The notes under the pieces were generated by a model. That model was not told the origin of the DNA. It made no database searches and saw only the letters and a program-made list of their open reading frames with translations. Shown here one piece after another: positions 41,949 through 64,000 of a DNA stretch of 64,000 bases (position 1 is its first letter; each line of letters begins with the position of its first letter). Source of the DNA: Myxococcus stipitatus. GTDB taxonomy: Bacteria; Myxococcota; Myxococcia; Myxococcales; Myxococcaceae. Both the position numbers and the translations under genes were made by a program. The stretch is from positions 372,001-436,000 of the forward strand of contig NZ_JAKCFI010000006.1 in assembly GCF_021412625.1 (NCBI RefSeq). The letters are read 5' to 3'.

Positions 41949-41965
41949 ATGCAACTTGATTGCTT
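41949..41965. promoter_or_regulatory. Candidate operator A1 (ATGCAA-N5-TTGCtT)
   Basis: ATGCAA-CTTGA-TTGCTT lies in an AT-rich island 82 bases before ATG 42048. It differs at one arm position from the perfect inverted repeat at 51781. The form resembles operators of Fur-superfamily metal repressors, which I infer; no repressor gene is in the window. Confidence 0.45.
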
Positions 41966-41982
41966 TTACGAATCGATTACAA
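41966..41982. promoter_or_regulatory. Candidate regulatory site A2
   Basis: TTACGAATCGATTACAA directly abuts site A1 and matches 14 of 17 positions of the site at 44143 (TTACAACTCAATTACAA). The stretch 41945-41990 is the most AT-rich in the area and probably holds the promoter of the 42048-44090 genes. Confidence 0.4.
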
Positions 41983-42047
41983 ATAATACCCGACAAGCGA
42001 CACTACGCGGGACCGCAGGACCTACCCCCCCGGGAGGAATACCGTTC

Positions 42048-42716
42048 ATGACCAGACGCCATTGGGGCCTTGGCGCAGCCATGCTCGCGCTCGCGGGCAT
42101 GTTCGCCGCGTGGCCGGGCGCGGACTCCGCGCCGGGCGACGCGGCGGTCGCCGAGGAGCGCGCCGCCCGTCCTTCCCCGCCGCCCCACGCCGCCCTCGTC
42201 GCGCTTCCCCCAGCGCCACCGAGCGTCCAGGACCTCGCGCGACCTTGGAGGGAGCGCGTGCTCGTCGCGGAGGACCTCCCCTCGCAGGTGGACGAAGGCG
42301 AGGGGACGCGGGTTCGCCCCCGGCGCGCGCCCTCCGAGTCGCGGCGGCGGGTCGTCCAGGCGCTGCGGGGCGCCCGCGAGCCGGGCCTCCGGAGGGAGGC
42401 CGTGCTCGCCGTGCTGCGCTCCTCCGGAGAGAGCCACGAGCCCTGGACCGAGCGGGCCCGCGCCGCGCTCGCCACCTGGCGACGGCGGGTGGAGGAGGAC
42501 GTGCTGCCCGTCCAGGTGGAGCCTCCCCACTGCTTCGCCGCGGGCTGCGTCACCCGCGTCACCTTCCCCGACAAGGACTCCCTCCAGGAGTCCTACCGCC
42601 GCGCTCCCGAATGGAGGCTCGGCGCTCCGGGCGCGCACCTCCAACTGCCGCCCGAGCGCCTCGCGTCCGGCGAGTTCATCGCCACCTGGCTCGTGCTGCC
42701 GCCGGACGCTCCCTGA
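42048..42716 (+). CDS. Hypothetical exported protein, first gene of the metal-cluster operon
   Basis: A 222-residue protein with an N-terminal hydrophobic segment (LGAAMLALAGMFAAW) that may be a signal or anchor. A Pro/Ala/Arg-rich middle follows and a small C-terminal domain with PHCFAAGCVTRVTFPD, a Cys-x4-Cys pattern that recurs in myxobacterial exported proteins in my experience. GGGAGGAAT precedes ATG 42048. It follows operators A1/A2 and leads to the lipoprotein gene after 58 bases. Function unknown. Confidence 0.75.
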   Translation: MTRRHWGLGAAMLALAGMFAAWPGADSAPGDAAVAEERAARPSPPPHAALVALPPAPPSVQDLARPWRERVLVAEDLPSQVDEGEGTRVRPRRAPSESRRRVVQALRGAREPGLRREAVLAVLRSSGESHEPWTERARAALATWRRRVEEDVLPVQVEPPHCFAAGCVTRVTFPDKDSLQESYRRAPEWRLGAPGAHLQLPPERLASGEFIATWLVLPPDAP

Positions 42717-42774
42717 CGCGTCCCTTCCCACCTGTCTCACCCCCCCGCTGTCCCAACCCGAAGGAGAGGTCCCC

Positions 42775-43374
42775 ATGAAGCTGGAGTCGCCGTTCCAGAA
42801 GTCCGTCCTCGCCGCCAGCGTCGCGGCGCTGCTCGCCGGCTGCGGCACCACCGACGTCGAGGAGGAGGAGGTCTCGCGGGAGGAGCTGGCGCGGTCGGAG
42901 GCCGCGCTGCTGCCCTCCTGCGAGGAGCCCGAGGAGTTGGCCGAGGTCGTCGAGCACGCGTGCATCCACGCGGAGGTCGGGCCCTTCGAGCCCGTCACCG
43001 CCGCCGCGCTGGGCGCGCCCGTCCTGGTGGACGTCAGCACGCCTCACACCGCGTACAACATCACCCTCCCCGCGAACCCCTCCACCTGGGGCTGGGCGGG
43101 CCGCGTCTCGTTCCTCCCGGACGAGTCCGGTGAGTTCGCCTTCCTCCTCTCCCGGTTCCGCGGCCTGCGCATCTACGACGCGGCCACCGGCGCCGAGGTG
43201 GCCCGCGAGTGCCGCTACCAGGTGCCCGTGGACGTCTGCGACGTGCTGAAGACGGCCGTCGTCGCGGACCTCGAGGCGGACACCGAATACCACCTGGAGT
43301 TCCGCTCCCTGCTGCCCCGCAACGCCTCCTTCTCCCTCGTCATCGAGGAGGCGGCCCACCACCACGAGGAGTAG
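42775..43374 (+). CDS. HACxH-domain lipoprotein (paralogue 1)
   Basis: A 199-residue lipoprotein (lipobox AALLAGCGTT). The shared domain opens with EHACIHAEVGPFEPVTA, followed by HTAYNITLP, GEFAFLLSR, a two-cysteine stretch (ARECRYQVPVDVC) and TEYHLEFRS. The protein ends in HHHEE. Histidine and cysteine clusters suggest metal binding at the outer membrane (inference). ATG 42775 follows AAGGAGAGG. Similar in layout to the products from 43446, 44173 and 45272. Family not recognised. Confidence 0.82.
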   Translation: MKLESPFQKSVLAASVAALLAGCGTTDVEEEEVSREELARSEAALLPSCEEPEELAEVVEHACIHAEVGPFEPVTAAALGAPVLVDVSTPHTAYNITLPANPSTWGWAGRVSFLPDESGEFAFLLSRFRGLRIYDAATGAEVARECRYQVPVDVCDVLKTAVVADLEADTEYHLEFRSLLPRNASFSLVIEEAAHHHEE

Positions 43375-43445
43375 GCGCTCCCACGCCTCCCACTCCATGT
43401 CCTCCAGAAACCCCGAACCCGTCCGTCTCCAGGGAGAGCACCCGC

Positions 43446-44090
43446 ATGAGACACCGCAGCCGTGTCCTCTTCCTCGCCACCTGCGCCCTGGCGGCTTCCG
43501 CCTGCGGTGGTGGCGACACGCCCCCCGACGACGAGCCCATCCCTTCGGAAGACCCGTGCGCGCCCCATGGCCACATCCACCGTGAGCCCACGGGAGATTG
43601 GTGCCATTGCAACAAGGGCTACCTGCCCTCATCCACCGGACTCGCCTGCGTCGTGGACCCCGACCATGTCCCCAGCGAAGGCTTCGACTTCGGAGACAAT
43701 GGAGAGCACGCCTGCTGGCACGTCACCCATGGCCCCTTCGTCACCGTGGAGGCCACGACGAGCCGAGCCCCCCGGGTGGATGACTTCCACACCTACTACA
43801 CCGTGAAGCTCCGTCCGGAGAATGGCCTGTACGTCGGCACCTTCAGCTACAAGGCCTTCGCCTCCGGCGACTTCGTCGTCTACCTGAGCACCCCGGACGT
43901 CCCCGTCACGCTGGTGGAGACGCCCATCCAGCAGACCGTCACGCCCGCCGCCACGCGGCCCACCGACAATCACTGCGCCGGCCTCCAACACATGGTCGGC
44001 TACGAACTGACGGACCGCGTCCAGTACACCCTCACGCTCGGCCCCACCTCGCACCCCGAGGTCGGAATGGTCATCGAGCACCTCGAATAG
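43446..44090 (+). CDS. HACxH-domain lipoprotein (paralogue 2) with EGF-like segment
   Basis: A 214-residue lipoprotein (lipobox LAASACGGGD). Before the shared domain it has a small cysteine- and histidine-rich piece (APHGHIHREPTGDWCHCNKGYL) resembling an EGF-like module. The domain follows: EHACWHVTHGPFVTVEA, FHTYYTVKL, GDFVVYLSTPDVPV, NHCAGLQHMVGY and LGPTSHPEVGMVIEHLE. GGGAGAG precedes ATG 43446. Same direction as and 71 bases after paralogue 1. Confidence 0.82.
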   Translation: MRHRSRVLFLATCALAASACGGGDTPPDDEPIPSEDPCAPHGHIHREPTGDWCHCNKGYLPSSTGLACVVDPDHVPSEGFDFGDNGEHACWHVTHGPFVTVEATTSRAPRVDDFHTYYTVKLRPENGLYVGTFSYKAFASGDFVVYLSTPDVPVTLVETPIQQTVTPAATRPTDNHCAGLQHMVGYELTDRVQYTLTLGPTSHPEVGMVIEHLE

Positions 44091-44142
44091 CCACACATCC
44101 ACCGGACGGCGTCCCCCCATCCGGGAGACGTCCGCCCACAAA

Positions 44143-44159
44143 TTACAACTCAATTACAA
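44143..44159. promoter_or_regulatory. Candidate regulatory site B
   Basis: TTACAACTCAATTACAA sits 13 bases before ATG 44173 inside an AT-rich island and matches 14 of 17 positions of site A2 (41966). It contains the direct repeat ATTACAA. Probably a promoter or operator for the third lipoprotein gene. Confidence 0.4.
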
Positions 44160-44172
44160 GAAAGAGACATCC

Positions 44173-44871
44173 ATGAAGAAGCTGACCTGGACGCTGCTCG
44201 CGCTGTCGCTGGCGGCATGCGGTCCCCTGGAGGAGACGGAGCAGGAGTGGGAGGCGGGAGAGACGGAGCAGGCGCTGGAGGCCGGCTGCGTGTCGGTGGA
44301 CTCCACGCTGATGACGACCCACGCCTGCACCCACGCGGGCAACGCCGCGGACAATGTGAACGTGACGACCAGCGCCACGCGCGTGGCCACCGCGCCGGAC
44401 GTCAGCGCCCGGCACCTGCACTACACGCTGGGCCTTCCGGCGGGCGCGGAGGGCTCCGTGACGTACACGCCCATCGCGGTGACTTCGACCACGTCCACGG
44501 TGGAGTCCATTGCGTTCTACCTGTCGCGGAACGTGGCGTTCACGGTGGTGGACACCACCACCAGCGCCGTCGTGCCGGCGCTCATCAGCGAGGGCCTCTC
44601 CGCCGCCTCGTGCTCGCTGACGCAGGCCCGGGTGTACGACCTCGTCGTGGGCCGCGAGTACATCCTCGCCGTCGGCCCCGCGACGGGGAACCAGGTGGGC
44701 ATGGTGCCCGAGTACCTCTACGACAATCGGGACCGCTTCTACCGGGACCAGGACGGTGACGGGTACGGCACCAACACGCCCGTCTACCGCTTCGCCTGCG
44801 AGGCGCCCTCGGGCTACGTGAAGCAGCGCTTCGACTGCGACGACACCAACCCCGCCATCTTCAACTGCTAG
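44173..44871 (+). CDS. HACxH-domain lipoprotein (paralogue 3) with calcium-binding-like tail
   Basis: A 232-residue lipoprotein (lipobox ALSLAACGPL). The shared domain is present with variations: THACTHAGNAADNVNV, RHLHYTLGLP, IAFYLSRNVAFTVVD, AASCSLTQARVYDLVVG and VGPATGNQVGMVPEY. A C-terminal extension has DQDGDGYGT, typical of thrombospondin-type/EF-like calcium loops, and DCDDTNPAIFNC, a MopE-like repeat. It has its own AT-rich upstream region, so it may have a separate promoter. Confidence 0.82.
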   Translation: MKKLTWTLLALSLAACGPLEETEQEWEAGETEQALEAGCVSVDSTLMTTHACTHAGNAADNVNVTTSATRVATAPDVSARHLHYTLGLPAGAEGSVTYTPIAVTSTTSTVESIAFYLSRNVAFTVVDTTTSAVVPALISEGLSAASCSLTQARVYDLVVGREYILAVGPATGNQVGMVPEYLYDNRDRFYRDQDGDGYGTNTPVYRFACEAPSGYVKQRFDCDDTNPAIFNC

Positions 44872-44950
44872 TCGCGCGCTCGCGCCCGGGCGGCTCCACC
44901 GCCCCCTTGCGCCCGTGACACCACGCGGTCGCATCCCCGCCTCACCGGCC

Positions 44951-44975
44951 GGCCGCCAGCACCTCGCTGGCGGCC
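44951..44975. terminator. Perfect 10-bp hairpin
   Basis: GGCCGCCAGC (44951-44960), loop ACCTC, GCTGGCGGCC (44966-44975). It is 79 bases after the paralogue 3 stop and just before the tandem repeats. Strong stem, no U-run. Probably ends the lipoprotein transcript. Confidence 0.5.
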
Positions 44976-44990
44976 CTCCGCTCACGCCCC

Positions 44991-45285
44991 CACGTCGTAC
45001 GGTCACCCCGCCGCGCTCGATTGCCAACCGCTCGGTGCCGCTCCTCCACCACCGCCTCGAAGGCCCCTCCGAAGATGACTCCACGCACCCACGTCGCGCG
45101 GTCACCCCGCCGCGCTCGACCACCAACCGCTCGGTGACACCCCTCCACTGCCCCTGCAAGGCCCCTCCGAAGATGAATCCACGCCCCCACGTCGCGCGGC
45201 CACCCCGCCGCGCTCGACCGCCAACCGCTCGGTGCTTCCCTTCCACCGTCCCCTGCAAGGCCCCTCCGAAGATGACGCTCCGCTC
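44991..45285. repeat. Three tandem 98-99 bp repeats running into a lipoprotein start
   Basis: Three imperfect direct copies start at 44991, 45090 and 45188. Each begins CACGTCG, contains CACCCCGCCGCGCTCGA and CCAACCGCTCGGTG, and ends with GGCCCCTCCGAAGATGA. The ATG in the third copy (45272) is the start of paralogue 4. ATG in copy two (45173) is in frame with it; ATG in copy one (45075) is not. This fills most of the 400-base gap 44872-45271, which holds no other gene. Confidence 0.85.
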
Positions 45286-46243
45286 CCGCACCGCCGCCGC
45301 CCTGCTCACCCTCTGCGCAACGCTCGTCCTGACCGGCTGCGACGGCGACACCTCGGACCCGCCCGCTCCCGACGCCGGCCACTCGGACGCCGGCGTGGAG
45401 CCGGACGCGGGTCCCCGGCCCGACGCGGGCGGTGACCAGGTCGCCCCCATCGCCACCACCTCCGACCCCGCCGAGGGCGCCACGGACGTGCTGCCCGTAC
45501 AGACCTTCAAGGTGGACGCGACGAACACGACCCTGCGTCGGCTCGTCACCGTCTCCTTCGACGAGCCCATGGACACCACCCAGGCCCAGGTGCGCCTGTT
45601 GGACCGGACCACTCCCGCCACGCCTCCGCGCGACCTCACCGGCCAATGGTCCGACGACGCGCGCACGCTCCACCTCGCCATCCCGCGCCCCGCGTCCGAC
45701 CTCCCGCCCCTGGAAGAGGACACGCGCTACGCGCTGGACCTCACGGCGCTGCGCGACGTCGCGGGCAACACGCTCGACACGTCGCACCCGGGCCTGGGCG
45801 ACGGCATGCTGGACTTCACCACCGGCGAGCGAGACCGCGTCACCGAGCACGCCTGCGGCCACGCGCTCCTCGAGGCACCCGTCGCCGTGAAGGCCGGCGC
45901 GTCCCCCACGACGATGTATCCCGCGACGGACTCGCCCCACGAATTCTACGAACTGACGCTCCCCGCGCGGGGCGCGGACTTCCTCGGCTATTCGGAGGTC
46001 GTCTCCGCCGAGCGCGACGAGCCCATCGTCATGTACCTGGACCAGGCGCTGCCGGTGGTCGTGCACGACGTGACGGAGGACGAGGTGGAGATTGCCTCCA
46101 CGCTCGCCCCCGCGCCGCCCGTCTGCCCCTCCGCCATCACCCACACGCTGAGGTTCACCGCCCCGGCGGGAGACCGCTTCCTGCGGCTCACCTACGGGCC
46201 CTCCACGCGGGAGAAGCTCACCTTCGTCTTCGAGCGCTACTGA
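45272..46243 (+). CDS. HACxH-domain lipoprotein (paralogue 4) with bacterial Ig-like domain
   Basis: A 323-residue lipoprotein (lipobox LCATLVLTGCDG) with an Asp-rich linker (PDAGHSDAGVEPDAGPRPDAG). A Big_5-type Ig-like domain follows (ATTSDPAEGATDVLPVQTF, VTVSFDEPMDTT), then the shared domain: EHACGHALLEAPVAVKA, PHEFYELTLP, IVMYLDQALPVVVHDVT, PPVCPSAITHTL, LTYGPSTREKLTFVFERY. The start lies in the third tandem repeat; ATG 45173 in the second would add 33 residues before the signal. Its end overlaps the convergent Crp-family gene by seven bases. Confidence 0.82.
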   Translation: MTLRSRTAAALLTLCATLVLTGCDGDTSDPPAPDAGHSDAGVEPDAGPRPDAGGDQVAPIATTSDPAEGATDVLPVQTFKVDATNTTLRRLVTVSFDEPMDTTQAQVRLLDRTTPATPPRDLTGQWSDDARTLHLAIPRPASDLPPLEEDTRYALDLTALRDVAGNTLDTSHPGLGDGMLDFTTGERDRVTEHACGHALLEAPVAVKAGASPTTMYPATDSPHEFYELTLPARGADFLGYSEVVSAERDEPIVMYLDQALPVVVHDVTEDEVEIASTLAPAPPVCPSAITHTLRFTAPAGDRFLRLTYGPSTREKLTFVFERY

Positions 46244-46845
46244 CTGGCGTCGCTCGCCGCCGCCTGCTGCCTGCGGCGCCGCGACACGATGCGGCTCAGG
46301 CCCACCTCGGTGATGCCGAGGTAGGCCGCCACGTCGCGCTGGGGAATCCTGCGGTGCAGGTGGGAATGCTCCGCCCAGAAGCGCTCCAACCGCTCCTCGG
46401 CGGACAGCTCCAGGAACTCCTGCTCCCGCTGCTCCTTCAGCAGGAAGTGCTTCTCCGCCACGCTGCGGGCCAGCTGCACCCAGCACGCGTGCCCCGCCTC
46501 CAGTTCCTGGAGGTCCGCCACCCGGAACACCAGCACCCGCGCCGGCTCCAGCGCCTCGATGGCCGTCATCGACGGCTTGCCCTGCAACATCTCCGAGTAC
46601 GCGCCCAACAGCTCGCCCTCCGCGCGGAAGGCCTTCACCGACTCCCCGCCTCGCGCGGACACACGCACCAGTCGGAACACGCCCTGGAGCACGACCGCGA
46701 AGCGGTCCGACGCATCACCCGGGCGCAGGAAGAGGGCCTTGCGGTCCACCGTCTGCTCCTTGCCCAGGACCTCCGCTCGCAACCATTCGTCGGGAGGGAT
46801 GGGCGCGAACTTGGAAAGTTGCTCGAAGAGCGCTGGAAATCTCAC
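46237..46845 (-). CDS. Crp/Fnr family transcriptional regulator
   Basis: A 202-residue regulator with an N-terminal cyclic-nucleotide-binding barrel (ALFLRPGDASDRFAVVLQGVFRLVRVS) and a C-terminal helix-turn-helix (IPQRDVAAYLGITEVGLSRIVSRRRR). The phosphate-binding cassette is not the canonical cAMP one and no Fnr cysteines are seen, so the ligand is unknown. GTG 46845 is the start. It diverges from the sterol-desaturase gene at 46911, a likely target. Confidence 0.9.
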   Translation of the reverse strand: MRFPALFEQLSKFAPIPPDEWLRAEVLGKEQTVDRKALFLRPGDASDRFAVVLQGVFRLVRVSARGGESVKAFRAEGELLGAYSEMLQGKPSMTAIEALEPARVLVFRVADLQELEAGHACWVQLARSVAEKHFLLKEQREQEFLELSAEERLERFWAEHSHLHRRIPQRDVAAYLGITEVGLSRIVSRRRRQQAAASDASQ

Positions 46846-46859
46846 GGGGGAGTGACCTT

Positions 46860-46875
46860 GGTTAACCCAGGTTAA
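46860..46875. promoter_or_regulatory. Candidate operator with GGTTAA repeats
   Basis: GGTTAACC (46860-46867) is palindromic and a further GGTTAA lies at 46870-46875. It sits 15 bases upstream of the Crp-family start and 36 upstream of the divergent desaturase start. Assigned from position and symmetry only. Confidence 0.3.
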
Positions 46876-46910
46876 GGCGACGTGGGGGAGGGGCGCCGTA
46901 CACCCGATGC

Positions 46911-48161
46911 ATGCCCATCAACGTATACGCCATCGCCACGCCTTTCGTCATCGCGTTGGCGTTGGGTGAGTTCGTGTACTGCGTGGCGAGACGCAACGGC
47001 TACTACAGCTTCCAGGACTCCATCGCGAGCATGGGCACGGCCGTCATCAACCAGTGTGTCAACGTCGCGGTGGCGTTGCTCGTGCTCCCCCTCTTCAACG
47101 CACTGGAGCGATTTTCCGTCGCGAAGTGGGACGCCACGTCGCCGCTCGCGCTGCTCGGGCTCTTCCTGGGCGTCGACTTCCTCTTCTACTGGTTCCACCG
47201 CTTCGGGCACCGCACCAACATCGGCTGGGCGGCGCACTCGCCCCACCACTCGACGGAGGAGCTCAACTACGCCGTGGCCCTGCGGGCCAGCGTGACGCAG
47301 CGGCTGTTCTCCTTCCTGTTCTACTGGCCGCTGGTCGTCGTCGGCTTCCCCTCCGAGGCCGTGCTCGCCATGGTGGCCTTCCACCTGGTGCTCCAGTTCA
47401 TCCCCCACACGCGCGTCATCCCCAAGCTGCCGCGGTGGATCGAGTCCTGGCTGAACACGCCCTCGCACCACCGCGTGCACCACGCCCGCAACGACCTGTA
47501 CATCGACAAGAACTACGCGGGCTTCCTCATCATCTGGGACCGGATGTTCGGCACGTTCCAGGAGGAGACGGAGGAGTGCTCGTACGGCGTCACCACGCCG
47601 CCGAACACGTGGGACCCGACCTTCATCAACTTCCAGTACTGGGCCAAGCTCGTCGGCGACGCCATCCACACCCGCAGCTGGTGGGACCGGCTGCGCCTGT
47701 GGGTGATGCCCACCGGCTGGCGCCCCGCGGACCTGCCAGCGCGAACGGAGGCGGGCTGGAAGCAGGCGGGCGCGGAGGTGAAGTTCCAGTCCGTGGAGCT
47801 GCCCGGCATCCGCGGCTACCTCGTGTTCCAGATGCTCACGTCGCTGCCGTTCATGCTGCTGGTCAGCCACCATGCCTCCCCGCTCTCCGGCTGGCGGAAG
47901 CTGGTGCTCAGCGCCCTCTTCTGGGCCATGGCCACCGCGTGGGCGGGGATGCTGGAGTCCAAGCGCTGGAGCCTGGGCCTGGAGATTGCGCGCGTGCTCG
48001 GCATGGGCGGCCTGGTGACGCTGTGGCTGGTGCAGGCCGGCGCGCCCCAGGCCTGGAGCGCGCTCACCGCCGGCTGGCTCGCCGTCACCCTCGTCTGGCT
48101 GCGCGTCTCCCGCACGACGAACCGCGGCGCCGCGCCGCTGTCCCAGGAGGCCGCGAGCTGA
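46911..48161 (+). CDS. Sterol desaturase / fatty acid hydroxylase family membrane enzyme
   Basis: A 416-residue membrane enzyme with the di-iron histidine boxes HRFGH (96-100), HSPHH (109-113) and HHRVHH (186-191), followed by a further block around the WDRMFGTF segment. Several transmembrane helices flank the boxes and four more lie in the last ~120 residues. It probably hydroxylates or desaturates a lipid; alkylglycerol monooxygenase-like enzymes share this layout. It may serve the ether or sterol lipids of myxobacteria, but this is inference. Divergent from the Crp-family gene. Confidence 0.92.
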   Translation: MPINVYAIATPFVIALALGEFVYCVARRNGYYSFQDSIASMGTAVINQCVNVAVALLVLPLFNALERFSVAKWDATSPLALLGLFLGVDFLFYWFHRFGHRTNIGWAAHSPHHSTEELNYAVALRASVTQRLFSFLFYWPLVVVGFPSEAVLAMVAFHLVLQFIPHTRVIPKLPRWIESWLNTPSHHRVHHARNDLYIDKNYAGFLIIWDRMFGTFQEETEECSYGVTTPPNTWDPTFINFQYWAKLVGDAIHTRSWWDRLRLWVMPTGWRPADLPARTEAGWKQAGAEVKFQSVELPGIRGYLVFQMLTSLPFMLLVSHHASPLSGWRKLVLSALFWAMATAWAGMLESKRWSLGLEIARVLGMGGLVTLWLVQAGAPQAWSALTAGWLAVTLVWLRVSRTTNRGAAPLSQEAAS

Positions 48162-48173
48162 GCGGCCCGCGCT

Positions 48174-49013
48174 TCACGGCTCCCAGACACCCGTGAAGGC
48201 CGTGGAGCGGCGCACGTTGACCGACAGCGCCCGGTGCACCTGCGCCTCGGGGGGGACGTCCACGCGCCCACCGCCCTCGGGGAGCGTCAGGCGGTCGAAG
48301 TGCGTGCCCTCGAACCAGCGGTGGGGCTGGAGCTCCACGACGAAGCACCCCGCGTCCTCCAGGTCCGCCTCCACCGGCACGAACTCCACCCGCTGGAGCG
48401 CCACCGGCGGAGGGAAGTCCAGCGCCACGCGGAACGGAATCTGGAGCTGCTCGCGCGAGGCCGTGCCCTCCAGCACCACCGAGTGCCCCTCGAGCACCGC
48501 CGCCTCCGCGCCCAGCACCCGGGAGGGGGGCTGGAGCAGCAGCGAGAAGGAGCGCGCACGCCCCGCGATGCCCGGCGAGCGCCCCAGCACCCGCGTGGCG
48601 CCCGCGTCGGCGAACAGGTCGAACACCACCTCCCGGTCCCACTCGCCCAGCACCGTGCCCCCGGAGAAGAAGTCCCCGTCGTGCGCATGCGCGGTGGGCA
48701 TCAGCATCCGCGCGAGCCGCGTCGGCCAGTCGCTCCCGCGCGCCTGTCGTGACTGGAGCGGCGAGGGGTTCTCGAAGAGGTAGATGGGGCCCAGCACCAT
48801 CCAGCCGGAGGTGAGCCGCACGCGCCAGCCCGTGTCCGTGGAGAGGTCGCCCACGCGCTCCTCGCCCGGAGCCCGCGCGGTGCGCAGCCCCAGGTCGAAC
48901 ACGATGGCGCGCCCGCCCGTGCCGGACAGCCCACAGGCGGGCAGCCCTCCGGCCAGCGAGGCCCCCAGCATTCCCAGCACGGCCCTACGGGTGACACACG
49001 GCGCGGTCGTCAT
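48174..49013 (-). CDS. Tat-type hypothetical lipoprotein coupled to the TonB receptor
   Basis: A 279-residue exported protein: TRRAVLGM matches the twin-arginine pattern and a lipobox (AGGLPACGLS) follows. The mature part is beta-rich with histidines (PTAHAHDGDFFSGG, LQPHRWFEGTHFDRLTLP). ATG 49013 overlaps the receptor stop as ATGA, so the two are made together. It probably works at the surface with the receptor, for example in capturing its ligand (inference). Family not recognised. Confidence 0.78.
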   Translation of the reverse strand: MTTAPCVTRRAVLGMLGASLAGGLPACGLSGTGGRAIVFDLGLRTARAPGEERVGDLSTDTGWRVRLTSGWMVLGPIYLFENPSPLQSRQARGSDWPTRLARMLMPTAHAHDGDFFSGGTVLGEWDREVVFDLFADAGATRVLGRSPGIAGRARSFSLLLQPPSRVLGAEAAVLEGHSVVLEGTASREQLQIPFRVALDFPPPVALQRVEFVPVEADLEDAGCFVVELQPHRWFEGTHFDRLTLPEGGGRVDVPPEAQVHRALSVNVRRSTAFTGVWEP

Positions 49014-51700
49014 GGCGAGTCCTCCTCGAGGTCGAGGTACACGGTGAGGGTGCCCCGGAACGTCCGAGGCGCCCCGGCGGAGAAGTGGCGCGTGGCCAGC
49101 AGCGACGCGGGCGCGTCCGGTCCCCGGAAGTTGGAAACGTGGTGCAGCTCCGTCTCCCGCCAGCGCGCGTCGAGCAGGTTCTCCACGGCCACTCCCAGCT
49201 CCAGCCAATCCCAGCGCGCGCGGGAGCCCACGTCGAAGAGGAAGACCGGCGCGCTGTAGCGGTCGAGCGGCAACGGCCGCGGGCCGATGGCGCTGTGCCC
49301 GAGCGCCACGCTCCAGCCCAGGCGCTGCCCCGACACGGTGACGGTGCCCCGCGCCGACGCGTCCACCCGGCCGAGCAGCGTGGGGATGTACGGCACCACC
49401 GCGCCCTCCCAGACCTTCCACGGAGACTCCCCCGGCGTGGGCAGCGTGGCCCGCGACCAGGCGAGCGACGTCTGCACGTCGAACCGCTCGGCCCAGGTCA
49501 GCCGCGCCGTGGCGAAGGCGCCCAGCCGCCTCGACGCGCCGATGGGCTGGTTGCGTCCCAGCTTCTCGTCGAAGACGTAGTCCTGCGACACCCTCGTGAC
49601 GAAGGTGGCCGCGCGCGCCTCCAACGCCCAGGGCCCGCCACCGTCCGCCTCCAGCCGCCAGCCCACGCCCGTCTCGCCGGAGATGACGCGCGCGTAGGGC
49701 GCCAGCTCCGCGTCGGACAGCGCCGCCGCGTCGCTGGAGCGCGCCCCCAGCCCCGCGCTGGTGAGCCACGTCCACCGGGGCGACAGGCGCACCTCCGCGC
49801 TCGCGCGGGGACTGGCGAAGAAGCCATACGCCTCCAGGGACTCCTCCGGGATGCGCGGGCCGTCCCGGTCCACCGCGGGCCGGTTCAGGTCGTCCACGCC
49901 GAAGAGGAAGGCGTCCAGCCGCACGCCGCCGCGCAGCGTGAGCCAGGAGGTCGGCGCGACCCGCAGGGCGGCGTGGCCCGCGAGGTTCGTGGTGCGAACC
50001 TGGTTGTCGAAGAGCGTGGCGTAGGGCGCGCCTCCCGCGTCCCTCAAGCGACGCGAGCGCGTGCGCACGTCGTCGTGACGGACCTCGTAGCCCAGCGTCA
50101 GCGGGCGGGCCTCGCCCAACAGCGTGAGCCCCGGGACGTAACGCCCCCGCAGGCCCAGGGTGGTGCCCCGGTAGTACCCCTCCGTGTCGTCGCCACGCTG
50201 GGGCCCGCCGTCGGGAAGCGTGTCCTGGAGGAAGCCCGTGAAGTTGTCGCGGATGCGCGTCTGGCGCAGCACCACGTAGCCCTGCTGGACGAGCCGGCCG
50301 CCGCGCGACAGGCGCGTCTGGAGCTCCGCGGACAGCAGGTGCCGCTGTCCCGCGCCGCCCTGGTTCGCGTCGTGGAAGCAGAAGAACTGAGAGTCCGCGT
50401 CCGGCGCGCAGGGCAGCCGCGCGTTGACGACATCCGTCTCCCGAATCACCCCCGCGGAGGAGAAGCGCCCCGCGTGGCTGGCGCCGAGCAGGCGCAGCCG
50501 CGACGCGTCGCCCACCCGCAGCTCCACCTGCGCCATCGCCCCGGCGCTCGCGTGGGAGCGGTTCGGCCCGAAGCCGTGGCCCTGGCGCAACAGGAGTCCC
50601 ACGAAGGTGGCCTCGCTCGCCTCGGGCGGCCCCCAGACCAGGGACAGCCGGCGCGCCGCGAAGCTGCCGGAGCTGGCGGACACGGCGAGCCCCCGTCGTT
50701 CCAATCCGAGCTGGTACTCCACCGTCCCCGCGACGCCGAAGTCGCCCTGTCCCGGGTCGAACGGCCCCTCCGTGACGCGCAGTGCCCGCACCAGCTCCGG
50801 GATGATGAAGTAGGTGTCCGCGTAGCCGTGGCCGTGCGAATGGGAGACCTCGTTGAGCGGCACGCCGTCGAGGCGCACCTCCACGTCCTTGCCCTCGCCC
50901 GCGTCGAAGCCCCGGATGAAGATGGACTCCGCGTGCCCCTCGCCACCGTGGTTGGCGAGCATCACCCCGGGCGCCAGCAGCATCAGGTCCGCCGCGGAGT
51001 TGCGCGGCACGTCCGCCAGCTGCCCCACCTCGATGTGGAAGTCCCCCACCGCGACCGGAGGCGGCGCCCGCGCCGTGCCCCGCACGGTGGTGGAGAAGGT
51101 CGGGGGCTGACGCGGACCGGCGCCCTCCACACCTGCTCCGTCTCGCGCGTCATCGGCCGCCCGGTCCAACGTCCGCGAGGGCTCGGCCCCTGCCGAAGCC
51201 ACCGCGCCCCCCGCGCCACCGGGCTCGCCTGATGCCCCATGAGCATCCACCGGAGCACGAGTAGACGCCGCGTGAGCATCCACCGGAGAGTGAGCAGCCG
51301 CCACGTGCGCATCCTCGGGAGTGCGAGCCGCCGCCGCGTGCCTATCCACCGAGGCGCCAGACGCCTCGGCATGCGCGTCCTCCCCTGGCGGAGAGAAGAC
51401 GACGGGGACGTCCACCTGCACGGCGAGCGGCACACCCTCCCGGGTCGCGGGCTGGAAACGCCAGCGCACCGCCGCCGCCAACGCGGCCCGGTCCAGCAAT
51501 GTCCCCCCGGACTCACGGACCTCCACGCGCTCGACCTCGCCCTCGGCGTCGATCGTGAGCCGCACCAGGACCGTCGTCGGTCCCTCCAACACGGCGCCTC
51601 CGGGCATCGCCGCCGGCGCCATCTCCCGTGGCGAGGGCGGGACGATGGGCGGTTCGGCCAGGGACATCAGCCCCCAGACCATCAACATCGGAATCCACAC
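49010..51700 (-). CDS. TonB-dependent receptor with N-terminal TonB-C domain and DxH repeats
   Basis: An 896-residue outer-membrane receptor. Domain order: signal peptide (MWIPMLMVWGLMSLA), a TonB C-terminal-like domain (about 30-105; VLVRLTIDAEGEVERVEVRE, AAVRWRFQPA), a linker of five 11-residue DxH repeats (107-161), the plug (PRNSAADLMLLAPGVMLANHGG, with HSHGHG at 287-292), and a barrel ending in LTVYLDLEEDSP. GTG 51700 was chosen over GTG 51751 because AGGAGG lies nine bases upstream and it starts at the signal peptide. Metal is the favoured ligand because of the histidines (inference). Divergent from the lipoprotein at 51813. Confidence 0.93.
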   Translation of the reverse strand: MWIPMLMVWGLMSLAEPPIVPPSPREMAPAAMPGGAVLEGPTTVLVRLTIDAEGEVERVEVRESGGTLLDRAALAAAVRWRFQPATREGVPLAVQVDVPVVFSPPGEDAHAEASGASVDRHAAAARTPEDAHVAAAHSPVDAHAASTRAPVDAHGASGEPGGAGGAVASAGAEPSRTLDRAADDARDGAGVEGAGPRQPPTFSTTVRGTARAPPPVAVGDFHIEVGQLADVPRNSAADLMLLAPGVMLANHGGEGHAESIFIRGFDAGEGKDVEVRLDGVPLNEVSHSHGHGYADTYFIIPELVRALRVTEGPFDPGQGDFGVAGTVEYQLGLERRGLAVSASSGSFAARRLSLVWGPPEASEATFVGLLLRQGHGFGPNRSHASAGAMAQVELRVGDASRLRLLGASHAGRFSSAGVIRETDVVNARLPCAPDADSQFFCFHDANQGGAGQRHLLSAELQTRLSRGGRLVQQGYVVLRQTRIRDNFTGFLQDTLPDGGPQRGDDTEGYYRGTTLGLRGRYVPGLTLLGEARPLTLGYEVRHDDVRTRSRRLRDAGGAPYATLFDNQVRTTNLAGHAALRVAPTSWLTLRGGVRLDAFLFGVDDLNRPAVDRDGPRIPEESLEAYGFFASPRASAEVRLSPRWTWLTSAGLGARSSDAAALSDAELAPYARVISGETGVGWRLEADGGGPWALEARAATFVTRVSQDYVFDEKLGRNQPIGASRRLGAFATARLTWAERFDVQTSLAWSRATLPTPGESPWKVWEGAVVPYIPTLLGRVDASARGTVTVSGQRLGWSVALGHSAIGPRPLPLDRYSAPVFLFDVGSRARWDWLELGVAVENLLDARWRETELHHVSNFRGPDAPASLLATRHFSAGAPRTFRGTLTVYLDLEEDSP
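51218..51382 (-). repeat. Five 33-bp repeats encoding 11-residue DxH units
   Basis: Consecutive units on the coding strand read EDAHAEASGAS, VDRHAAAARTP, EDAHVAAAHSP, VDAHAASTRAP and VDAHGASGEPG, each with Asp-x-His at positions 2-4. DNA period is 33 bp. They link the TonB-C-like domain to the plug in the periplasm. Confidence 0.85.
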
Positions 51701-51780
51701 GGTGGGAACCCTCCTCGGGTCGCGGCGCCAGCGCCTCCAGGAACGCGGCACGGCCCGGGGATAACCCTCATCACCTTGAA

Positions 51781-51797
51781 ATGCAATTCAGTTGCAT
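51781..51797. promoter_or_regulatory. Candidate operator C: perfect ATGCAA-N5-TTGCAT
   Basis: ATGCAATTCAGTTGCAT is a perfect 6-5-6 inverted repeat between the TonB receptor (start 51700) and the lipoprotein (start 51813), so it can control both. It sits in an AT-rich stretch (51770-51815) and matches site A1 at 41949 with one arm change. Confidence 0.5.
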
Positions 51798-51812
51798 ATA
51801 CATCACGGAAAC

Positions 51813-52700
51813 ATGAACGCGAACCGACGTGGTGGGATTCGAGGGCTCCGGGTGGTCCTGGTGGCGATGGCGCTCGCGGGTGTGGCCTGTGACCCGGTGG
51901 CCCGAGGCGACGTCCTGGTGACGATGAGCGGGGGCGACGGCACCCAGCGGGGTCTGCCGGACACCGTCTTCGAGGACGGCTGGTCCATCCAGTTCACGAA
52001 GTACCTGGTGTCGCTCGGGGACTTCACCCTCACGTCGGCGTCCGGAGAGGTCCAGCGCAGCCCCCGGTACGTGCTCGTGGACGTGCAGAAGGGGGACGTG
52101 CCGCTGACGGAGCTGCGGGGGTTGGGCGCGGGGCGGTGGGACGTGGCGTTCCGGGTGGCGCCGCCCGGCGAGGCCACGGAGTTGGCGGATGGACAGGTGC
52201 TGGCCGAGGACCTGGCGCGCATGCGCCAGCGCGGCTTCAGCTACTGGGTGGAGGGGCGCGCGGTGAAGGCGGGCGCGGGCGTGCTCACCTTCCAGATGGG
52301 CTTTCCCGTCGACGCGCGCATGGAGGACTGCATCAACGGCGTGGACGGGACCCAGGGCATCATCGTGCCGGAGGGCTCGACGGCGGAGGTGGAGGTCACC
52401 ATCCACGCCGAGCACATGTTCTATGACCGGCTGGGCACCCACCAGGGCGTGAAGCTGCGCTTCGACGCCATCGCCGCCACCGCCAGTCCGGAGGGACTCA
52501 TCACCCCGGAGGGCCTGGCCTCACAGCGGCTCACCGACCTGCGGGATTCCGAAGGGGGGGAGCTGCGGGATGGCGCCGGAAACCCCGTCGTGTATCTCCC
52601 GGGCGCACACGACGTCCGGACGCTCCAGGAGTTCGTCACCCAGAGCATCGTCGATCAAGCCCACCTCAACGGCGGAGGGGTTTGCACGGTCGCCAATTGA
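51813..52700 (+). CDS. Hypothetical lipoprotein divergent from the TonB receptor
   Basis: A 295-residue lipoprotein (lipobox MALAGVACDP). The mature part begins DVLVTMSGGDGTQRG and contains WSIQFTKYLVSLGDFTL, YVLVDVQKGDVPL and a histidine-rich piece HAEHMFYDRLGTHQG, with two cysteines (DCINGVDG, GVCTVAN). It recalls in outline MbnP-like metal-binding partners of TonB receptors, but I cannot confirm membership. ATG 51813 follows operator C by 15 bases. It probably belongs to the same regulon as the receptor. Confidence 0.8.
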   Translation: MNANRRGGIRGLRVVLVAMALAGVACDPVARGDVLVTMSGGDGTQRGLPDTVFEDGWSIQFTKYLVSLGDFTLTSASGEVQRSPRYVLVDVQKGDVPLTELRGLGAGRWDVAFRVAPPGEATELADGQVLAEDLARMRQRGFSYWVEGRAVKAGAGVLTFQMGFPVDARMEDCINGVDGTQGIIVPEGSTAEVEVTIHAEHMFYDRLGTHQGVKLRFDAIAATASPEGLITPEGLASQRLTDLRDSEGGELRDGAGNPVVYLPGAHDVRTLQEFVTQSIVDQAHLNGGGVCTVAN

Positions 52701-63217: not shown

Positions 63218-63264
63218 TGAAACAGCAACCAACACACACGCAACTTCGATACAAAAACATAAGT

Positions 63265-63337: not shown

Positions 63338-64000
63338 ATGAAGAAACACATCGTGATGGGGAGTTGGGCGCTGGCCCTGCTGCTCGTGGGCTGTGATGGA
63401 GCGACGGAGGCACCCGCGGGCGAGCCGGCGACGCGGGCGTCGGCGCTGGATGGCGGGCTCGTGAACGTCACGCTGTCCAAGCCCGCGACGGCGTCGCACG
63501 TGCAGACGGACCCGTACTTCCCGCCGGAGAAGGCGGTGGATGGGAACATCACCTCGGACGACTCGCGGTGGTGTCCTGGTCCGTACCGGCTCGCCCAGCG
63601 CTACCTCGACATCGACCTCCAGGGCACGTTCGACCTGCACCGGGTGGAGCTCTATACGGGCTACCGGGACATCCGTCCCGTGGCGAACTACGACCTGCAC
63701 TACTACGACGGCACCAGCTGGCTGCCCATCCCCGGCGCCGCGAAGACGGGCAACACCAGCATCGCGGTCTCCACCACCTTCACGCAGGTGGTGCGCGGCC
63801 AGCGCGTGCGCTTCCTCTGCAACGAGCCGAACGAGGAGAACTGCCGGGTGAAGGAGCTGTGGGTGTTCGGCCTGCCCGTCACCCCGGGAGCGAACCAGCC
63901 GCCCGTGGCCAACGCGGGCGCGGACCAGAGCATCACCCTGCCCACCTCCAGCCTCACCCTCGCGGGCTCCGCGACGGACGCGGATGGCACCATCACGTCC
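63338..64000 (+). CDS. Discoidin (F5/8 type C)-like domain lipoprotein, 3' truncated by window edge
   Basis: The first 221 residues of a larger surface protein. It has a lipobox (ALALLLVGCDGA), then a galactose-binding-like/discoidin domain: VTLSKPATASHVQTDPYFPPEKAVDGN is the typical opening, with RYLDIDLQGTFDLHRVELYT, and FLCNEPNEENCRVKELWVFG at its end. ANQPPVANAGADQSITLPTSS begins a PKD-like or K319L-like Ig domain that runs off the window. Probably binds polysaccharide or is part of a secreted hydrolase. ATG 63338 follows GGAG. Confidence 0.85.
   Translation, partial: MKKHIVMGSWALALLLVGCDGATEAPAGEPATRASALDGGLVNVTLSKPATASHVQTDPYFPPEKAVDGNITSDDSRWCPGPYRLAQRYLDIDLQGTFDLHRVELYTGYRDIRPVANYDLHYYDGTSWLPIPGAAKTGNTSIAVSTTFTQVVRGQRVRFLCNEPNEENCRVKELWVFGLPVTPGANQPPVANAGADQSITLPTSSLTLAGSATDADGTITS

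Follow-up and report, generated by a model that had tools for sequence, protein, structure and literature searches.

Myxococcus stipitatus carries a TonB-dependent receptor gene in the vicinity of several genes for histidine-bearing lipoproteins, and the question raised by this locus is whether these genes form one regulon for the capture of a metal and, if so, of which metal. A sequence-only reading had proposed a single regulon under a Fur-type repressor that captures zinc or copper at the cell surface. The analysis presented here covered a stretch of 64,000 nt (the window; G000:C6:372001-436000) of the 10.1-Mb genome, together with orthologous loci and family genomes.

Gene organization of the locus

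The gene content that had been described from the sequence was confirmed by ORF analysis, motif inspection and family alignments. A row of genes on the plus strand opens with p42048 (42048..42716, 222 aa), which had no Pfam or NCBIfam match and whose product, rather than being a lipoprotein, carries a membrane anchor at its N terminus. It is followed by four HACxH lipoprotein genes: H1 (42775..43374; motif EHACIH and a His-rich tail, HHHEE), H2 (43446..44090; EHACWH), H3 (44173..44871; THACTH) and H4 (45272..46243; EHACGH), the last with an N-terminal Big_5 Ig-like domain detected by Pfam. On the minus strand, the receptor gene (49010..51751) and a gene for a Tat-exported lipoprotein (48174..49013; TRRAVLG...LPAC) are coupled by an ATGA overlap at 49010-49013. 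Divergent from the receptor is a further lipoprotein gene (51813..52700, plus strand), designated the 51813 lipoprotein. The gap between H3 and H4 was found to be filled at 44983-45294 by three imperfect direct repeats with a spacing of 99 nt.

Operator in the window and in orthologous promoters

Two AT-rich palindromes, at 41949 and 51781, had been noted previously and were recovered as real features, compared to 0.18 such palindromes expected from shuffled sequence. The half-site pattern given for them, ATGCAA-N5-TTGCAT, does mark the operator but proved to be a degenerate reading of a conserved 17-bp palindrome, wTGCAAC-N3-GTTGCAw. When the genome was scanned for the degenerate pattern with at most one mismatch, four places were found, and two of these were outside the locus, one close to an ornithine carbamoyltransferase-like gene and the other to a Spo0M-like/sensor-kinase pair. 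The scan was thus uninformative alone, and the motif was rebuilt from the orthologues. By this approach, the operator was detected in the receptor/51813 promoter at 45 of 45 orthologous loci (about six of which represent the same genome counted twice), directly after a TTGA(C/A) hexamer that resembles a -35 element.

A weight matrix trained on the orthologous promoters only was then run over the window. Four outliers were obtained (scores of 20.3, 17.9, 15.3 and 14.8), the next best site scored 8.1, and 0.05 hits were expected by chance at a score of at least 14.7. Three of the four outliers precede genes of the locus. The best (20.3) is the perfect palindrome ATGCAATTCAGTTGCAT at 51781..51797 in the receptor/51813 intergenic region, which abuts a TTGAAA -35-like hexamer. 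The site upstream of the p42048-H1-H2-H3(-H4) row, ATGCAACTTGATTGCTT at 41949..41965, has one mismatch (14.8), and a degenerate site, TTACAACTCAATTACAA at 44143..44159 (15.3), lies before H3 and had been missed by the sequence-only reading. Intact boxes were detected upstream of H3 in relatives (e.g., L170, L172, L174, L175, G023 and G051), and in Corallococcus interemptor (L175) H1 is preceded by ATGCAACTTGATTGCAT, nearly the same as the 41949 site. For p42048, a perfect box is positioned between this gene and a divergent S14/L28 pair in G045, and a perfect box adjoins zur in G029. In most orthologous loci the ATG of the 51813 gene is 12-15 nt past the operator, so its mRNA may be leaderless.

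Regulator and regulon content in family genomes

The operator consensus of the orthologues is the same as the predicted Desulfovibrio Zur consensus ATGCAACNNNGTTGCAT (PMC545781), and the operator palindrome is identical to the predicted Desulfovibrio box ATGCAAC-N3-GTTGCAT, ATGCAACnnnGTTGCAT (Rodionov et al. 2004, PMC545781). In Desulfovibrio this box precedes znuABC-zur; by contrast, the box is carried here by outer-membrane and lipoprotein genes, and znuABC-like loci in seven genomes were found to have none.

When 19 family genomes were searched with the operator pattern, 106 strand hits were obtained, compared to 3 with a reversed control. Boxes were located upstream of zur itself (L120, L121), of ZigA (636 bits in NCBIfam, cutoff 600), and of DUF1826, L28-S14 and L33 genes; by inspection, the L28 and S14 paralogues are devoid of zinc-binding Cys pairs. 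A GTP cyclohydrolase II gene (L095 2410-3048) is also preceded by a perfect box, which recalls the Zur-regulated ribA of Vibrio. COG0523 proteins, ribosomal paralogues, ribA in Vibrio, TonB receptors and autoregulation are recognized Zur targets (PMC6103462); DUF1826 is not mentioned as such in that work. Taken together, boxes before zur, ZigA, DUF1826, L28/S14/L33 and GTP cyclohydrolase II constitute the signature of a zinc-starvation regulon. The earlier proposal of one regulon with a Fur-type repressor is supported by this result, and its choice between zinc and copper is narrowed to zinc by the operator and the regulon content of relatives, with copper left unsupported.

The window's genome encodes two Fur-family proteins, one canonical and one divergent (C6:580071-580520). 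The latter is the proposed zur, although by sequence it is closer to generic Fur than to a Zur model, and sequence models gave no clear assignment to a subfamily. Its homologues adjoin box-carrying operons in G029 and, in Polyangiaceae, the receptor cluster, and a zur homologue was present in every searched genome that had a strong 51813 orthologue. No box was detected at the zur promoter of the window's genome, nor were a ZigA-type COG0523 gene, a DUF1826 gene or a second S14 gene found there. The recognized Zur regulon thus appears reduced in this genome, and the assignment of zinc, which from the evidence of the relatives is the most likely metal of the locus, rests on those relatives. A literature search of partial coverage found no report of a myxobacterial Zur regulon or zinc TonB system.

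Gene association across relatives

Conservation of the gene set had been put forward as a check, and it was borne out throughout Myxococcaceae and, for part of the set, in Polyangiaceae. The p42048/H1-H4 row, the receptor-Tat pair and the 51813 gene stay together in Myxococcus, Archangium, Corallococcus, Pyxidicoccus and further genera, with p42048 at the start of the row in other genera as well. Crp-family and fatty-acid hydroxylase genes separate the two blocks only in the window's genus; in other genera both genes are absent and the p42048-H1-H4 block abuts the receptor block. Judged from this gene order, the two are evidently genus-specific insertions, and their membership in the system is unsupported. 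The Crp-family gene was also rejected as a local regulator, since it is confined to this genus.

In the basal Myxococcaceae loci L054 and L184, genes for AztD, the lipoprotein, an H2-like protein, the receptor and the Tat lipoprotein form one row. The receptor-Tat-lipoprotein genes of Polyangiaceae (L187, L188) adjoin a zur homologue, ZigA and AztD, and L188 includes in addition DUF1826 and a HACxH-type protein with the motif SHACDH. AztD and ZigA are zinc chaperones; a ZigA-type COG0523 was not found in the window's genome. A paralogous receptor/Tat/MbnP-like lipoprotein operon, widespread in Myxococcota (L055 5418-9573 on G000:C8, L060-L070 and L189-L238), is box-free, with the box in 0 of 50 loci (L189-L238); its metal is perhaps copper.

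TonB-dependent receptor

By Pfam, the receptor is composed of TonB_C (E 7e-13), plug (E 9e-11) and barrel (E 3e-9) domains. The His-rich plug motif that had been pointed out (HSHGHG, within SHSHGHGYAD) was confirmed and is kept in orthologues, with HSHGHG, HAHGHG or NAHSHG in the Zur-linked branch compared to HIHALG in the paralogues. The DxH linker repeats that had been listed beside it are real in the window's receptor, but orthologues lack them entirely or almost entirely; they are thus not a family feature, and the linker was rejected as a metal ligand. From what is known of the family, a receptor of this type would imply energized import across the outer membrane, and its N-terminal TonB_C domain may modulate energy coupling. 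A phmmer comparison to PDB sequences, in which relation to ZnuD was queried, listed BtuB as the sole entry. The NCBIfam model of the myxochelin receptor MxcH aligned to the TonB_C and plug regions at 52 bits, below its cutoff of 925, and identity with MxcH was ruled out. No metallophore genes were seen near the locus.

The 51813 and Tat lipoproteins

Alignment of the 51813 family, in which the closest named relative is from Myxococcus dinghuensis (87% identity), revealed invariant C26 (the lipidation site), C173, C291, H198, H201, D205 and H284; H198, H201 and D205 form an HxxH...D motif and H284 is a second histidine. An AlphaFold model (pLDDT 91.6) was found to resemble MbnP of Methylosinus (7l6g) at Z 9.8 over 192 residues and 3.8 A, a remote likeness in which MbnP nonetheless ranks above the next family. 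Pfam MbnP was matched weakly (E 0.0013) by one of 24 family members; the window's own protein had no match in Pfam or NCBIfam, MbnP models included. No gene for a di-haem MbnH or cytochrome-like partner was noted on inspection of the neighboring ORFs. The 51813 lipoprotein is comparable to MbnP in predicted fold and TonB-receptor association, but differs in a sequence likeness that is nearly undetectable, in the lack of an MbnH-like gene nearby, and in its apparent placement under Zur control instead of in a copper/methanobactin context.

The Tat lipoprotein is remotely related to the 51813 lipoprotein, with an hhalign probability of 92.6% between its family and the 51813 family. Its family has a conserved AHAH segment; the TAT_signal model matches weakly in 3 of 15 members, and no Pfam match was detected. 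PDB sequence searches with profiles of the 51813 and Tat families returned no matches.

HACxH lipoproteins

In the HACxH family alignment, C90, H92 and C177 are invariant and H88 and H115 nearly so, the first His of the motif being missing in some members. H2 is the best conserved of the four lipoproteins and is composed of a Cys/His-rich EGF-like N-terminal part and a beta-sandwich domain. H1-H3 had no Pfam match, and H4 matched only through its Ig-like domain. In the AlphaFold model of H2 (pLDDT 89), HACxH forms a helix N-terminal to the sandwich, such that H88 and H92 are spaced i,i+4. C90 and C177 are conserved together and probably form a disulfide, with the histidines as probable metal ligands judging from conservation. 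The domain (residues 95-212) resembles the PPC/clostridial collagen-binding sandwich (Z about 8 to a best of 10.2, ~105 residues) but adds an N-terminal helix, a lipid anchor and the Zur link; no sequence match to PPC/collagen-binding Pfam models was found, and the HACxH profile gave only weak, incidental matches among PDB sequences. On another contig of the window's genome (L252 3846-4535, G000:C1), a small PPC-like lipoprotein with CEH and NHRRYDI motifs and a His-rich tail is encoded ~8 kb from znuABC; lipoproteins of this type were also found near znuABC in G007 and G038, the distance being about 5-10 kb in several genomes.

Proposed function and comparison with known systems

We consider it highly likely that the locus is a zinc-starvation system under Zur control, in which the TonB receptor would import zinc and the envelope lipoproteins would bind it. 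The location of the operator inside the promoter implies, by analogy to known families, repression by Zn-Zur. When zinc is sufficient, Zur bound to wTGCAACnnnGTTGCAw in the -35/-10 spacer would block transcription; when zinc is short, the locus would be derepressed, and it is very probably at zinc shortage that it is switched on and used to capture the metal. The receptor, which has a plug loop rich in histidine and a TonB-like domain of its own, may then carry zinc, free or in a complex, across the outer membrane, while the 51813, Tat and HACxH lipoproteins may bind zinc at the envelope via their conserved histidines and either deliver it to the receptor or act as a buffer for it.

In kind, this is Zur-regulated TonB-dependent zinc acquisition, and what is new are the undescribed lipoprotein families. 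A Zur-type operator before a TonB receptor is shared with the Zur regulons that include the zinc receptors ZnuD (Neisseria, Pseudomonas), ZnuK/L/M (Caulobacter) and ZrmA (P. aeruginosa), and co-regulated COG0523/ZigA and ribosomal paralogues are common to the locus's family and known Zur regulons (PMC6103462). Compared to ZnuD-type systems, what sets the receptor here apart is its N-terminal TonB_C domain and its coupling to HACxH lipoproteins and to two MbnP-like ones, none of which is in the regulon table of PMC6103462.

Other explanations were weighed against this one. The Streptomyces nickel Nur box is TTGCAA-N5-TTGCAA. The operator resembles it, and generic Fur models match the proposed zur protein, as would suit a sensor of the Fur family, for nickel (Nur) or otherwise, that controls import of nickel or cobalt; the zinc-type regulon content (ZigA, AztD, DUF1826 and ribosomal paralogues without zinc-binding cysteines) and the occurrence of the same box ahead of znuABC-zur in Desulfovibrio make this reading very improbable. 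Equally improbable is a copper or methanobactin-type system in which the 51813 lipoprotein would act with the TonB receptor. The MbnP fold and the weak Pfam match in one member are in its favor, but an NCBIfam MbnP-type match and a cytochrome-like partner gene are both lacking, and the Zur-linked branch has a Zur operator and zinc neighbors. That the genes are chance neighbors, with the receptor/51813 pair the only real unit, is hardly credible: the separation of the two blocks by Crp and fatty-acid hydroxylase genes is confined to one genus, the blocks abut elsewhere, an H2-like gene stands between lipoprotein and receptor in basal lineages, and boxes precede both blocks.

A different doubt concerns the lipoproteins and leaves the Zur regulon itself in place. 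The HACxH and MbnP-like lipoproteins could be structural, receptor-gating or prey-contact proteins that do not bind zinc. The invariant HACxH cysteine pairs with the distant C177 in what may be a structural disulfide, the sandwich resembles collagen-binding/PPC domains, and some members do without the first His. Against this stand the conserved histidine sets (H88/H92 on a predicted helix with H115, and H198/H201/D205/H284) and the related lipoprotein that neighbors znuABC in several genomes, and we regard non-binding lipoproteins as unlikely. Within the preferred reading of a Zur-controlled zinc system, a surface relay is somewhat doubtful but can be outlined: the two MbnP-fold and several HACxH lipoproteins would strip zinc from sources such as prey proteins and feed the receptor, with no diffusible zincophore. 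If such a relay is true, the MbnP fold would gain its first branch specific for zinc, and myxobacteria their first described Zur regulon. For predatory myxobacteria, the analysis supplies a candidate Zur operator together with a regulon, and it provides the HACxH, Tat and 51813 lipoproteins, which are without Pfam/NCBIfam assignment, with a concrete role in acquiring zinc that can be tested. It also suggests that TonB receptors for metals besides copper may have MbnP-fold lipoproteins as partners.

Additional boxes

Some boxes in the family genomes precede non-zinc genes, namely a subtilase and DUF418; for the latter, a membrane protein, the box is perfect in L096 and L101 (G007, G028). In the window, the second-best matrix hit (17.9), ACGCAACTTCGATACAA at 63238-63254, is upstream of a lipoprotein-like ORF (~63339-64000+) and is possibly a further Zur target.
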